Positions 44,773 through 48,416 of a DNA stretch of 64,000 bases are shown here, piece after piece. Both the position numbers and the translations under genes were made by a program. Under the pieces are notes generated by a model that searched no databases, had not been told where the DNA came from, and saw only the letters and a program-made list of their open reading frames with translations. The DNA lies in the NCBI RefSeq assembly GCF_009765825.1, contig NZ_LMUR01000010.1, positions 509,783-573,782 of the forward strand, written 5' to 3'. The first letter of the stretch is position 1. Every line of letters begins with the position of its first letter. Source of the stretch: Granulicella sp. L60. GTDB taxonomy: Bacteria > Acidobacteriota > Terriglobia > Terriglobales > Acidobacteriaceae.

Positions 44773-46203
44773 CTACGCACCTGCGATCGTCATACCTTCG
44801 ATGCGAATTGTAGGCGCTGCGCTTGCTCCGCGGAAGACGAGATCATTGCCGATGCCGACGATGTTGCGGTACATGTCTTTGAGATTTCCTGCGATGGTGA
44901 TCTCTTCGACGGGGTAGGCGATCTCGCCGTTCTCGATCCACATGCCGCTTGCGCCCTGGGAGTAGTCGCCGGTTACGAGGTTGACGCCGAAGCCCATGGT
45001 CTCGGTGACGTAGAGGCCGGATTTGATGTCGCCGATGATCTCGTCTGGTGTGAGCGTGCCGGCTTCGAGGAAGAAGTTGCCTGCGCCGATGCCGGGGTTT
45101 CCGGCGAGACCGCGAGAGGCGTTGCCGGTGGAGTGCATGTTGAGCTTGCGCGCGGTGTAGGTGTTCATGACGTAGTTCTTGAGGATGCCGCGTTCGACGA
45201 GGACGGTGCGGCGGGTGGGCAGGCCTTCGCCGTCGAAGGGACGGGTGCCGAAGCCGCCGGTCTTGATGTCGCTGCTGTCTTTTCCGCTGTCTTTGCCGCC
45301 GAAGACGATGGTGCCGTCGTCGATGACGGTGATGTTTTCTCCGGCGACCTGTTCGCCGAGGAGGCCGCTGAAGAAGGAGGCGTTGCGGTAGATGGCGTCG
45401 CCGTTGGCCGCGTCGAAGATGTTGCCGATGATGCTGCGGGCGATCTCGGGTGAGAAGACGACGGGGGCTTTTTGCGTTTTGACCTGGCGGGCGCCGAGGC
45501 GCTTAAGGGTGCGGCGGGCGGCTTCGTGACCTATTGCTTCGGGGTTCTCGAGCTTCCTGGTGGTGCGGGCGCTGGAGTACCAGTAGTTGCGCTGCATGTT
45601 GCCGTTTTCGTCGTGGGCGATGGGCGCGGCGGAGAAGCCGCAGTAGCTGCGACGGTATTCGCCGATGAAGCCGCGGGAGTTCATCAGGATCTTGTGCGAG
45701 GTGGAGGTGTCGAAGTCGCCGCCGCCGGAGTTCTGGATGCGGGCGTCGTAGGCCATGGCCGCTGCTTCGGTGCGTCGTGCGATCTCGATGCGCTCGGCGG
45801 GCGGCATCTGGTTAACGTCTTCGAAGTAGAGGTGCTGATCTTCGTCGATCTGGCCGAACTCGTGCGCTTCGGGGAGACCGGCGAAGGGGTCTTCGCTGGT
45901 GATCCTGGCGAGGGTGACTGCGCCTTCGACGAGGCGAGCGATGCTCTCGGCGGAGAAGTCGGACGAGGAGGTGCTGGCGGTGCGCTGGGCGTTGCCGGAT
46001 GCGATGAAGACGCGCAGGCCGACGGCACGGGAGCCGGATTCTTTGAGGGTTTCGACCTGGCCCAGACGCACGAGGGCGGAGAACTCATCGCCCTCGTAGA
46101 CGACAGCTTCGGCGTCGGTGGCTCCGGCTTTGAGGGCCTTTGCGAGGACTTCGGAGGCGAGCTGCTTCAGGTCGGACGAGACAACGGGCGCGGACTGTGA
46201 CAC
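44773..46203 (-). CDS. pmbA: TldE/PmbA-family protease partner
   Basis: A 476-residue TldE/PmbA protein. In E. coli TldE pairs with TldD to form a protease that cleaves unfolded peptides, including the microcin B17 leader and CcdA. This subunit lacks the HExxxH metal site, which lies on TldD, as expected. GLRVFIASGNAQRT and the conserved C-terminal GASGMWIENGEIAYPVEEITIAG mark the family. The gene is last in a run tldD, small zinc-ribbon-like, small zinc-ribbon-like, pmbA. It starts with GTG. Confidence 0.93.
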   Translation of the reverse strand: MSQSAPVVSSDLKQLASEVLAKALKAGATDAEAVVYEGDEFSALVRLGQVETLKESGSRAVGLRVFIASGNAQRTASTSSSDFSAESIARLVEGAVTLARITSEDPFAGLPEAHEFGQIDEDQHLYFEDVNQMPPAERIEIARRTEAAAMAYDARIQNSGGGDFDTSTSHKILMNSRGFIGEYRRSYCGFSAAPIAHDENGNMQRNYWYSSARTTRKLENPEAIGHEAARRTLKRLGARQVKTQKAPVVFSPEIARSIIGNIFDAANGDAIYRNASFFSGLLGEQVAGENITVIDDGTIVFGGKDSGKDSSDIKTGGFGTRPFDGEGLPTRRTVLVERGILKNYVMNTYTARKLNMHSTGNASRGLAGNPGIGAGNFFLEAGTLTPDEIIGDIKSGLYVTETMGFGVNLVTGDYSQGASGMWIENGEIAYPVEEITIAGNLKDMYRNIVGIGNDLVFRGASAAPTIRIEGMTIAGA

Positions 46204-46233
46204 GTATTACTTACCTCGACGGGCGATGTGACT

Positions 46234-46542
46234 TCAGCGAACTGGCGTTTGGGACATGCGGGACTGGCGACCGTCGGTGGCTTTGAGGAAGTGCATGCCG
46301 GCGAGGCAGTACTCGGAGTCGCTCTTGAGCTTGTGCTCAATGTGAGAGGCAGCTCCGTCTTCGGTGCGACGCTTGTAGAGCTTGACGGGGCCTCCGCAGT
46401 CCTTGCAGCGGAACTCGGTGTCGTTGTCTTCGAGGGCGACGGCGATGGGTTTGATCTTCCAGAATGGCTCGTAGCCACCGGTTGCTTTGACGCGGCGACG
46501 TTTTACTTCGCACTCGTAGAATTTTTCGCGGTCGATTGCCAT
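46234..46542 (-). CDS. Small zinc-ribbon-like protein (copy 2) between tldD and pmbA
   Basis: A 102-residue soluble basic protein with a likely zinc site: C46 and C49 (RCKDC), H70 and C79 (SEYC). An aromatic GGYEPFWKIKP motif (22-32) and a C-terminal KATDGRQ are also strong. It aligns end to end with the gene at 46642-46950, with identical Cys/His positions, so the two are duplicates. GAGG precedes the ATG. The family is not one I can name; a protein-binding adaptor, a TldD/TldE substrate or a nucleic-acid binder are all open. Confidence 0.75.
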   Translation of the reverse strand: MAIDREKFYECEVKRRRVKATGGYEPFWKIKPIAVALEDNDTEFRCKDCGGPVKLYKRRTEDGAASHIEHKLKSDSEYCLAGMHFLKATDGRQSRMSQTPVR

Positions 46543-46641
46543 GATGCACCTCGTTTGCAGGGAAGCTGTTGAGTCTTACTGTTACGTTTTACTTTCTGTT
46601 GTCGTGCAAAAGAGAGTGTGCGAAGAGTGTGCCGTTAGCGG

Positions 46642-46950
46642 CTATTCGACGGGATGGTCCGATTGCTTTGGCTGACGGCCGTCGGTGGCTTTTTTGAATA
46701 ACATACCGCCGAGGCAGTACTCGGAGTCGGCGGGAGATTTGTGTTCGACGTAGGGCACGGCGCCGGCTTTGCCGTTGCGGCCGAGGAGCTTGACCACGCC
46801 GAAGCAGTCCTTGCAGCGGAACTCGGTGTCGCTGTCGGCGAGTGCGTCGACTACAGGCTTGACCTTCCAGAAGGGCTCGTAACCACCGCCTGCCTTGACA
46901 CGACGGCGCTTCACTTCGCACTCATACATCTTTTCGCGTTCGACTGCCAT
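46642..46950 (-). CDS. Small zinc-ribbon-like protein (copy 1) between tldD and pmbA
   Basis: A 102-residue paralogue of the downstream gene. C46, C49, H70 and C79, the CEVKRRRVKA start, GGYEPFWKVKP and KATDGRQ are shared, while the linkers (LGRNGKAGAV versus YKRRTEDGAA) differ. Its ATG shares one base with the tldD stop (TAATG), so translation is coupled to tldD. This tight link is the strongest hint that it works with TldD/TldE. No signal peptide or membrane segment. Confidence 0.8.
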   Translation of the reverse strand: MAVEREKMYECEVKRRRVKAGGGYEPFWKVKPVVDALADSDTEFRCKDCFGVVKLLGRNGKAGAVPYVEHKSPADSEYCLGGMLFKKATDGRQPKQSDHPVE

Positions 46951-48416
46951 TATTGTCCTGTTCCCCCGACCGTCATGCGGTCGAGCTTTACTGTGGGCAT
47001 GCCTACGCCGACGGGCACGCTCTGCCCGGCCTTGCCGCAGGTGCCGATGCCTTCATCGAGTGCAAGATCGTTTCCAACCATCGAGACGTACTTGAGAGCT
47101 TCGGGGCCGTTGCCGATGAGGGTCGCGCCTTTGACCGGGCGGGTGACCTTGCCGTCTTCGATGAGGTAGGCTTCGCTGGCCGAGAAGACGAACTTGCCGT
47201 TGGTGATGTCGACCTGGCCGCCGCCGAAGTTGACGGCGTAGAGGCCGCGTTTGACGGACTTGATGATGTCTTCGGGCATGTCGTCGCCGTTGAGCATGTA
47301 GGTGTTGGTCATGCGCGGCATGGGGATGTGGTGGTAGCTCTCGCGGCGTCCGCTGCCGGTGTTGGGCATGCCCATGAGGCGCGAGTTGAGCTTGTCGGAG
47401 AGGAAGCCTTTGAGGATGCCGTTCTCGATGAGGACGGTCTCCTGGGTGGGGTTGCCTTCGTCATCCATGTTGATGGAGCCGCGGCGACCGGGCATGAGGC
47501 CGTTGTCGACGACGGTAACTTTTTCGCTGGCTACCTTCTGGCCGATGAGTCCGGCGAAGGCTGAGGTCTTCTTGCGGTTGAAGTCGGCTTCGAGGCCGTG
47601 GCCTACGGCTTCGTGAAGGAGAACGCCGGGCCAGCCGGGGCCGAGGACGACGGGCATCTCGCCGGCGGGAGCTTCGATGGCTCCGAGCTGGAGGATGGCG
47701 GTGCGGGCGGCCTCGCGGGCGTAGTGTTCGGGGGACTTGTCTCCGTCGCCCTGGCTGCGGGTGTCTTCGAAGAAATCCATGGTGACGCGTCCGCCGCCTC
47801 CGCTGCTGCCGCGTGCGGTGTTGACGCCGTCTTTCGCGATGACGAAGACGTTGAGGCGGGCGAGGGGCTGAGTGTCGGAGGCGAAGGTGCCGTCGGAGGC
47901 AGCGACGAGGATGCGGCGGAGCTCGTCGTTGAAGCCGGCGCGGACCTGGGTGATGCGGGAGTCGTAGGCGCGGGCGGCCTTGTCGGCGCGTTGGATGAGG
48001 GCGAGCTTGGCGGCGATCTCGGCGTCGCTGGTGGCTCCGGCGACGGGGTAGAGCGAGGGGGCGTCGCTGGTCTGGCGGAAGCCGCTCATGAGCTCTTTGG
48101 CCGGGCCGCTGGCGATGAGGGCTGCGGTACGTGCGGCGCGGAGGAGGCGGTCGCTGGAGAGGTCGTCGGTGTAGGCGTAGCCGGTGCGTTCGCCGGAGAG
48201 GACGCGGATGCCGCAGCCTACGCTGATGCCCTGACTGGCGGATTTGACCAGGGACTCGTCGATGCCGAGGGAGGTGGAGGTGACCGATTCGAAGTAGAGG
48301 TCGGCGTAGTCGCCACCGGCCGAAAGTGCTTCCCCGAGGCAGCGCTCCATCAGACGTTCAGAGATTCCCAACTTTTCGATGAAATATCGCTTGTGATCAG
48401 GAGGGATTATGGTCAT
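46950..48416 (-). CDS. tldD: TldD metalloprotease
   Basis: A 488-residue TldD protein, the catalytic subunit of the TldD/TldE protease. The metal motif HEAVGH in LLHEAVGHGLEADF is intact, and the C-terminal GTCGKAGQSVPVGVG segment is typical. It would degrade unfolded or leader peptides together with PmbA (44773-46203). It starts the four-gene run and overlaps the next start by one base. Confidence 0.95.
   Translation of the reverse strand: MTIIPPDHKRYFIEKLGISERLMERCLGEALSAGGDYADLYFESVTSTSLGIDESLVKSASQGISVGCGIRVLSGERTGYAYTDDLSSDRLLRAARTAALIASGPAKELMSGFRQTSDAPSLYPVAGATSDAEIAAKLALIQRADKAARAYDSRITQVRAGFNDELRRILVAASDGTFASDTQPLARLNVFVIAKDGVNTARGSSGGGGRVTMDFFEDTRSQGDGDKSPEHYAREAARTAILQLGAIEAPAGEMPVVLGPGWPGVLLHEAVGHGLEADFNRKKTSAFAGLIGQKVASEKVTVVDNGLMPGRRGSINMDDEGNPTQETVLIENGILKGFLSDKLNSRLMGMPNTGSGRRESYHHIPMPRMTNTYMLNGDDMPEDIIKSVKRGLYAVNFGGGQVDITNGKFVFSASEAYLIEDGKVTRPVKGATLIGNGPEALKYVSMVGNDLALDEGIGTCGKAGQSVPVGVGMPTVKLDRMTVGGTGQ

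Follow-up and report, generated by a model that had tools for sequence, protein, structure and literature searches.

About 60% of bacterial genomes encode TldD/E, a protease that matures ribosomally synthesized and post-translationally modified peptides (RiPPs), microcin B17 among them, and that is believed to serve several other functions in the cell. It threads peptides and accepts only unfolded ones, and modelling suggests a need for at least 15 linear N-terminal residues (PMC10885120 for all of these points). Among the papers on TldD that were found, PMC10885120 included, none treats a small partner protein of the kind described here, as judged by titles and the beginnings of abstracts; on the same basis, none of the papers on CoiA zinc ribbons treats such a TldD partner. 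Genes for two small proteins, here named A and B, are located beside tldD in a 64,000-nucleotide stretch of the genome of Granulicella sp. L60 (contig NZ_LMUR01000010.1, positions 509,783 to 573,782), referred to as the window. The gene order on the minus strand is tldD, A, B, tldE (pmbA). Both large proteins contain the three PmbA_TldD domains (Pfam), and the HExxxH motif occurs in TldD (HEAVGH) and is absent from TldE; judged by these features, the tldD product is the catalytic half and the tldE product the non-catalytic half of the TldD/E metalloprotease. The stop codon of tldD overlaps the start codon of A in the string TAATG, and gaps of 99 and 30 nucleotides (nt) separate A from B and B from tldE, respectively. 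The first-pass annotation, which had reported two 102-residue paralogues between tldD and pmbA, the first joined to tldD by TAATG, was confirmed at this locus. Our tentative reading is that A and B are zinc-binding accessory proteins of TldD, which would tune its proteolysis.

A scan of the genome_contigs set with two short patterns, which detect close relatives only, returned 53 loci, or 52 after removal of one that is not a relative (L132). In 48 of the 52 loci of these close relatives, the gene immediately upstream, in the same orientation, is tldD, and in 17 of these 48 it shares the one-base overlap with the small gene. The other four loci are L114, with tldE and with a contig edge at its beginning, L123, with tldE only, and L106 and L128, which have neither gene. 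Two copies of the small gene are present in 27 of the 52 loci. The record titles include Edaphobacter lichenicola, Granulicella rosea, G. mallensis, G. paludicola, and Terriglobus roseus. Among the 41 well-flanked loci (at least 1 kb upstream and at least 5 kb downstream), the small gene is located within 120 nt of tldD in 36 and within 120 nt of tldE in 23. The tldE gene lies within 5 kb of the small gene in 37 of these loci; it is more than 120 nt away or was not found in 18. In L097, L104, and L108, tldD and the small gene or genes occur together, with no tldE found in the 5.4–5.5 kb downstream. The small gene is tied to tldD more than it is enclosed by the tldD/tldE pair. The earlier description of the paralogues as enclosed by both protease genes goes further than the anatomy allows, given these 18 loci and the presence of tldD and tldE without the small gene in most genomes of the family. 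Four loci in three assemblies titled Rhodanobacteraceae or Verrucomicrobia (L107, L112, L113, L114) carry the same acidobacterial tldD locus, and these assemblies are probably mis-binned.

The linkage to tldD, which the first-pass annotation had proposed to follow in other genomes, was also observed with a wider profile in a sample of 200 genomes of the family Acidobacteriaceae. Matches were obtained in 33 genomes at E ≤ 1e-3 and in 26 at E ≤ 1e-13. In 22 of the 26, tldD is adjacent to the small gene; these 22 genomes span nine genera, and a further draw added a tenth (g32). One of the remaining four (G174) has only tldE within about 1.5 kb, and three (G064, G081, G166) have neither gene within the flank. 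Of the seven genomes with weaker matches (E > 1e-13), four yielded loci (G006, G176, G099, G106), none of them with tldD, and three yielded no locus. The tldD-linked members reach identities to A as low as 24–32%. Since relatives recur beside tldD in many genomes, the arrangement is not due to chance. A draw from the whole phylum gave matches in 25 of 396 genomes at E ≤ 1e-5. Four of these genomes (G402, G506, G513, G556) do not belong to the family, and in all four the flanks of the matching gene are free of an adjacent tldD.

The small genes behind tldD are of two sequence types, namely type I, represented in the window, and type II (the NPGCSLG type). In a draw of 319 genomes, type II was located beside tldD in 13 of the 15 genomes matched at E ≤ 1e-30; most of the 15 had been used to build the profile, and in all three that were new to it (G604, G575, G624) type II is beside tldD. 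A single clade of linked proteins was rejected by the approximately unbiased test (p 0.0003) for 31 linked and 15 unlinked rows, a set enlarged and relabelled after a first run (p 0.003). Four unlinked type I rows carry this rejection: p rises to 0.43 when they are left out, and is 0.27 when four further rows are dropped. Separate arrivals of types I and II behind tldD are possible on these data. In locus L301 (genus g32), the type II gene that separates tldD from tldE is distributed over two frames and tldD itself is broken in two, which may reflect decay, mis-binning, or poor assembly; this locus was not used.

The small-protein tree has few columns and many weak forks. In this tree, 27 of the 28 'first' copies and two single copies form a 29-row group that includes A (Shimodaira–Hasegawa-like approximate likelihood-ratio test [SH-aLRT], 98), while 21 of the 28 'second' copies and 15 of the 24 single copies form a 36-row group that includes B (SH-aLRT 88); the remaining seven 'second' copies stand apart. 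Such a topology fits one old tandem duplication, without proving it. The tldE tree of 153 rows implies at least nine gains or losses of the small gene. The share of rows with the small gene in this tree (55 of 153) is meaningless, as many were chosen for having it. Not represented are five loci for which the candidate row was a tldD and not a tldE sequence (L097, L098, L104, L107, L108), seven short loci whose genomes or near relatives are already present, and the three probably mis-binned loci L112, L113, and L114.

A and B share 68 of 102 residues and are the only copies found in their own genome. The first-pass annotation listed C46, C49, H70, C79, and the segment KATDGRQ as exactly kept, which is correct for A and B; in wider alignments, KATDGRQ is confined to nearer relatives and is no part of the family core. 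All 81 copies compared (two from the window and 79 from the genome_contigs loci) retain the motif RC..C.G-x-H-x-C, and C46, C49, H70, and C79 are the likely zinc ligands. Invariant residues span positions 13 to 100. The small genes are under purifying selection: the median ratio of nonsynonymous to synonymous substitution rates (dN/dS) is 0.15 for 'first', 0.17 for 'second', and 0.24 for single copies, calculated from the pairs with dS between 0.1 and 1.5 (218 of 378, 185 of 378, and 98 of 276, respectively). AlphaFold2 models of A and B have predicted local distance difference test (pLDDT) scores of 89.6 and 88.5 and predicted template-modelling (pTM) scores of 0.78 and 0.76, respectively. 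The models show a beta-hairpin, a short helix, the CxxC motif, another hairpin, and a pair of short helices; apart from a short N-terminal tail, the predicted fold takes in the whole of each protein, starting at about residue 9.

Neither protein reaches a Pfam cut-off. B scores 15.5 bits with DUF7830 (27.5 needed) and 14.1 bits with DUF7828 (25.7 needed), and A matches neither of these at E ≤ 5. Weak Pfam matches (E ≤ 1) among 25 members of the family were to DUF7830 (PF25169; 11 members), DUF7828 (PF25165; 9), DUF7561 (PF24442; 8), and CoiA_N (PF25164; 2), all of which we take to be zinc-type domains. The order of residues in the CxxC...H...C pattern is presumably that of CoiA_N, DUF7830, and DUF7828. 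These weak matches suggest a relationship to zinc-type domains. Searches against NCBIfam gave nothing for A and B at E ≤ 5 and four single weak matches among the 25 members. Among the PHROGs, phrog_1257 ('ribosome associated inhibitor A; zinc finger domain') matched best; it was found with three of the 25 members, at a lowest E of 0.00011, and not with A. PtuB models of PADLOC matched three and one of the 25 members (best E 0.021). No sequence match to solved structures was obtained. Fold searches of the PDB with the model of B only (Foldseek, VIA-align) yielded no match with E ≤ 0.001 or Z ≥ 2, and Foldseek gave no convincing match of this model to viral structure models. No relative was detected in viral_contigs, by scans that reach close relatives only, or in phages. 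By sequence and model, A and B are small proteins, predicted to be folded, with a zinc motif, and they belong to no described family.

The reading that we tentatively prefer places A and B in an undescribed family of small folded proteins that bind zinc. They would be produced in step with TldD off one transcript, with the synthesis of A translationally coupled to that of TldD. As accessory factors they would most likely bind to TldD, or to TldD/E as a complex, and adjust the choice of what gets degraded. The tighter link to tldD than to tldE favours a factor acting with TldD, and the product of a gene bound to tldD in this way is a definite candidate for such an action on the catalytic subunit. 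Among the roles suggested in the first-pass annotation, adaptor and inhibitor are possible, while that of a substrate is weakened by the predicted fold; taken as a whole, the earlier interpretation is partly supported. A more elaborate version appears doubtful: TldD would have a zinc-binding subunit or switch of its own, drawn repeatedly from a wider zinc-motif family into the place after tldD and duplicated in Edaphobacter/Granulicella, which would tie TldD/E proteolysis to zinc or to chosen clients. The carriers, a group of soil bacteria, include culture-collection strains, Terriglobus roseus DSM 18391 and Granulicella rosea DSM 18704, which makes the accessory function testable.

Several observations weigh against an accessory function. 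The tldD gene is present in 117 of 120 family genomes of at least 90% completeness, and the stretch after it was examined in 116 of these (the window's own genome excluded). In 78 of the 116, tldE follows within 300 nt and no small gene was found. The small gene occurs after tldD in seven genomes, in one of them together with a pyrophosphatase gene; a pyrophosphatase gene alone is present in five, another insert or a longer gap in 17, and one contig is too short. Since most family genomes have no small gene behind tldD, the retention of TldD/E does not require it. Within the window's own genus, 4 of the 22 genomes in the phylum draw are without it. A pyrophosphatase gene also occupies the tldD–tldE interval in 6 of 116 genomes, so a link cannot be proved by position alone. 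Many related proteins are not encoded beside tldD, the close spacing can be explained by plain inheritance, and the 52 loci of the close-relative scan include near copies and are therefore not independent.

Another explanation is that of an operon passenger: a zinc-motif protein with a job of its own, such as nucleic-acid binding, whose gene would have entered the place behind tldD on one or a few occasions and been inherited there because of a suitable promoter, with no relation to the protease. As other genes pass through the interval and the small gene is absent from most family genomes, this explanation is nearly as likely as an accessory function. The presence of the wider family in unrelated places and the positive mean net charge of the small proteins (+2.8 to +5.4) agree with it. 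Against a passenger stand the link of the small gene to tldD, which is tighter than that to tldE, its recurrence beside tldD in 10 genera and in two sequence types, and the small number of genome_contigs loci (2 of 52) with neither protease gene.

The pyrophosphatase genes mentioned above, named by eye as encoding inorganic pyrophosphatase, were found between tldD and tldE in G004, G011, G015, G023, G026, and G078. In eight other genomes of the 116 (G130, G072, G066, G083, G044, G124, G151, and G008, the last with about 2.8 kb), no tldE was detected within about 4 kb downstream of tldD, and the two genes seem to be separated there.

Small relatives away from tldD include L043/L044, L076/L077, L040–L042, and distant hits on plasmids of Acidiphilium, Methylobacterium, and Sphingobium, where no annotated feature lies under the match. 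They share with A and B the CxxC...H...C core, often preceded by W, but are not beside tldD within the flanks and do not have the ATDGR segment. For the unlinked relatives L265, L072, L076, and L272, the neighbours noted are an AAA-type ATPase, a DUF5131-like open reading frame (ORF), and a GIY-YIG-like ORF, all three named by eye, and, in the case of a Sphingobium plasmid, genes annotated as WYL, DUF2779, and RecB-like nuclease.

The remaining explanations involve the metal or the protease substrate more directly. A and B could be zinc-gated substrates, stable when bound to zinc and unfolded and degraded by TldD/E when zinc is missing, so that their level would report zinc supply. The conserved likely metal ligands and the acceptance of only unfolded peptides by TldD/E (PMC10885120) speak for this possibility. 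It is nevertheless improbable, given the short N-terminal tail and a predicted fold that covers everything after about residue 9, and the substrate of a general protease would need no gene linkage. Still less credit can be given to a role as metal chaperone, in which A and B would deliver zinc to the HExxxH site of TldD. A zinc motif encoded beside the gene for the metal-binding subunit, and linked to tldD more than to tldE, would suit a chaperone; four invariant ligands in a confidently predicted fold, however, look structural, and most family genomes with tldD have no such gene behind it. With a fold that is predicted to begin at about residue 9, set against the at least 15 linear N-terminal residues suggested to be needed (PMC10885120), an ordinary substrate is unlikely and a RiPP precursor, for which the known maturation of microcin B17 and other RiPPs by TldD/E would argue (PMC10885120), is very unlikely. 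Both proteins have 102 residues, show conservation along most of the chain, and are confidently predicted to be folded, unlike an unstructured leader with a short core, and none of the eight flanking ORFs scanned matches a RiPP-specific enzyme.

The features of the locus are listed in Table 1.

Table 1. Positions of the protease genes, the small genes, and promoter-like matches in the window
Feature	Coordinates	Strand	Basis
tldD, 488 aa, HEAVGH at residue 268	46950..48416	-	Pfam PF19289/PF19290/PF01523 above cut-off
Paralogue A ('first' copy), 102 aa, C46-C49-H70-C79	46642..46950	-	ORF, motif, TAATG start overlap
Paralogue B ('second' copy), 102 aa, same motif as A	46234..46542	-	ORF, motif
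tldE/pmbA, 476 aa, no HExxxH	44773..46203	-	Pfam PF19289/PF19290/PF01523 above cut-off
Promoter-like match just upstream of tldD	48425..48453	-	consensus scan only
Second promoter-like match, tldD/A junction	46949-46976	-	consensus scan only

A consensus scan of positions 46100–48700 revealed no terminator-like match on the minus strand. The Pfam scan of eight flanking ORFs found one generic GNAT acetyltransferase, three ORFs without a match, and no RiPP-specific enzyme. The peptide-processing system envisaged in the first-pass annotation is not borne out by this gene content or by the small proteins, which are not precursor-like. Two long ORFs of the window, 42987–44381 (465 aa) and 50504–52093 (530 aa), had no Pfam match at E ≤ 0.001.

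In comparison with described systems, the small proteins resemble DUF7830, DUF7828, DUF7561, and CoiA_N in their CxxC...H...C region, over which the weak matches extend; they differ in standing alone and in having a predicted beta-hairpin before CxxC, and the scored matches are below the Pfam cut-off. With microcin B17 maturation the locus shares the protease family, but not a precursor-like peptide or, among the eight scanned neighbours, a RiPP-specific enzyme. Another close counterpart is TldD/TldE (PmbA) of MEROPS family M103: both subunits are present with the right domains, and HExxxH is found only in TldD. What distinguishes the locus from this described pair is the presence of one or two small zinc-motif genes after tldD.

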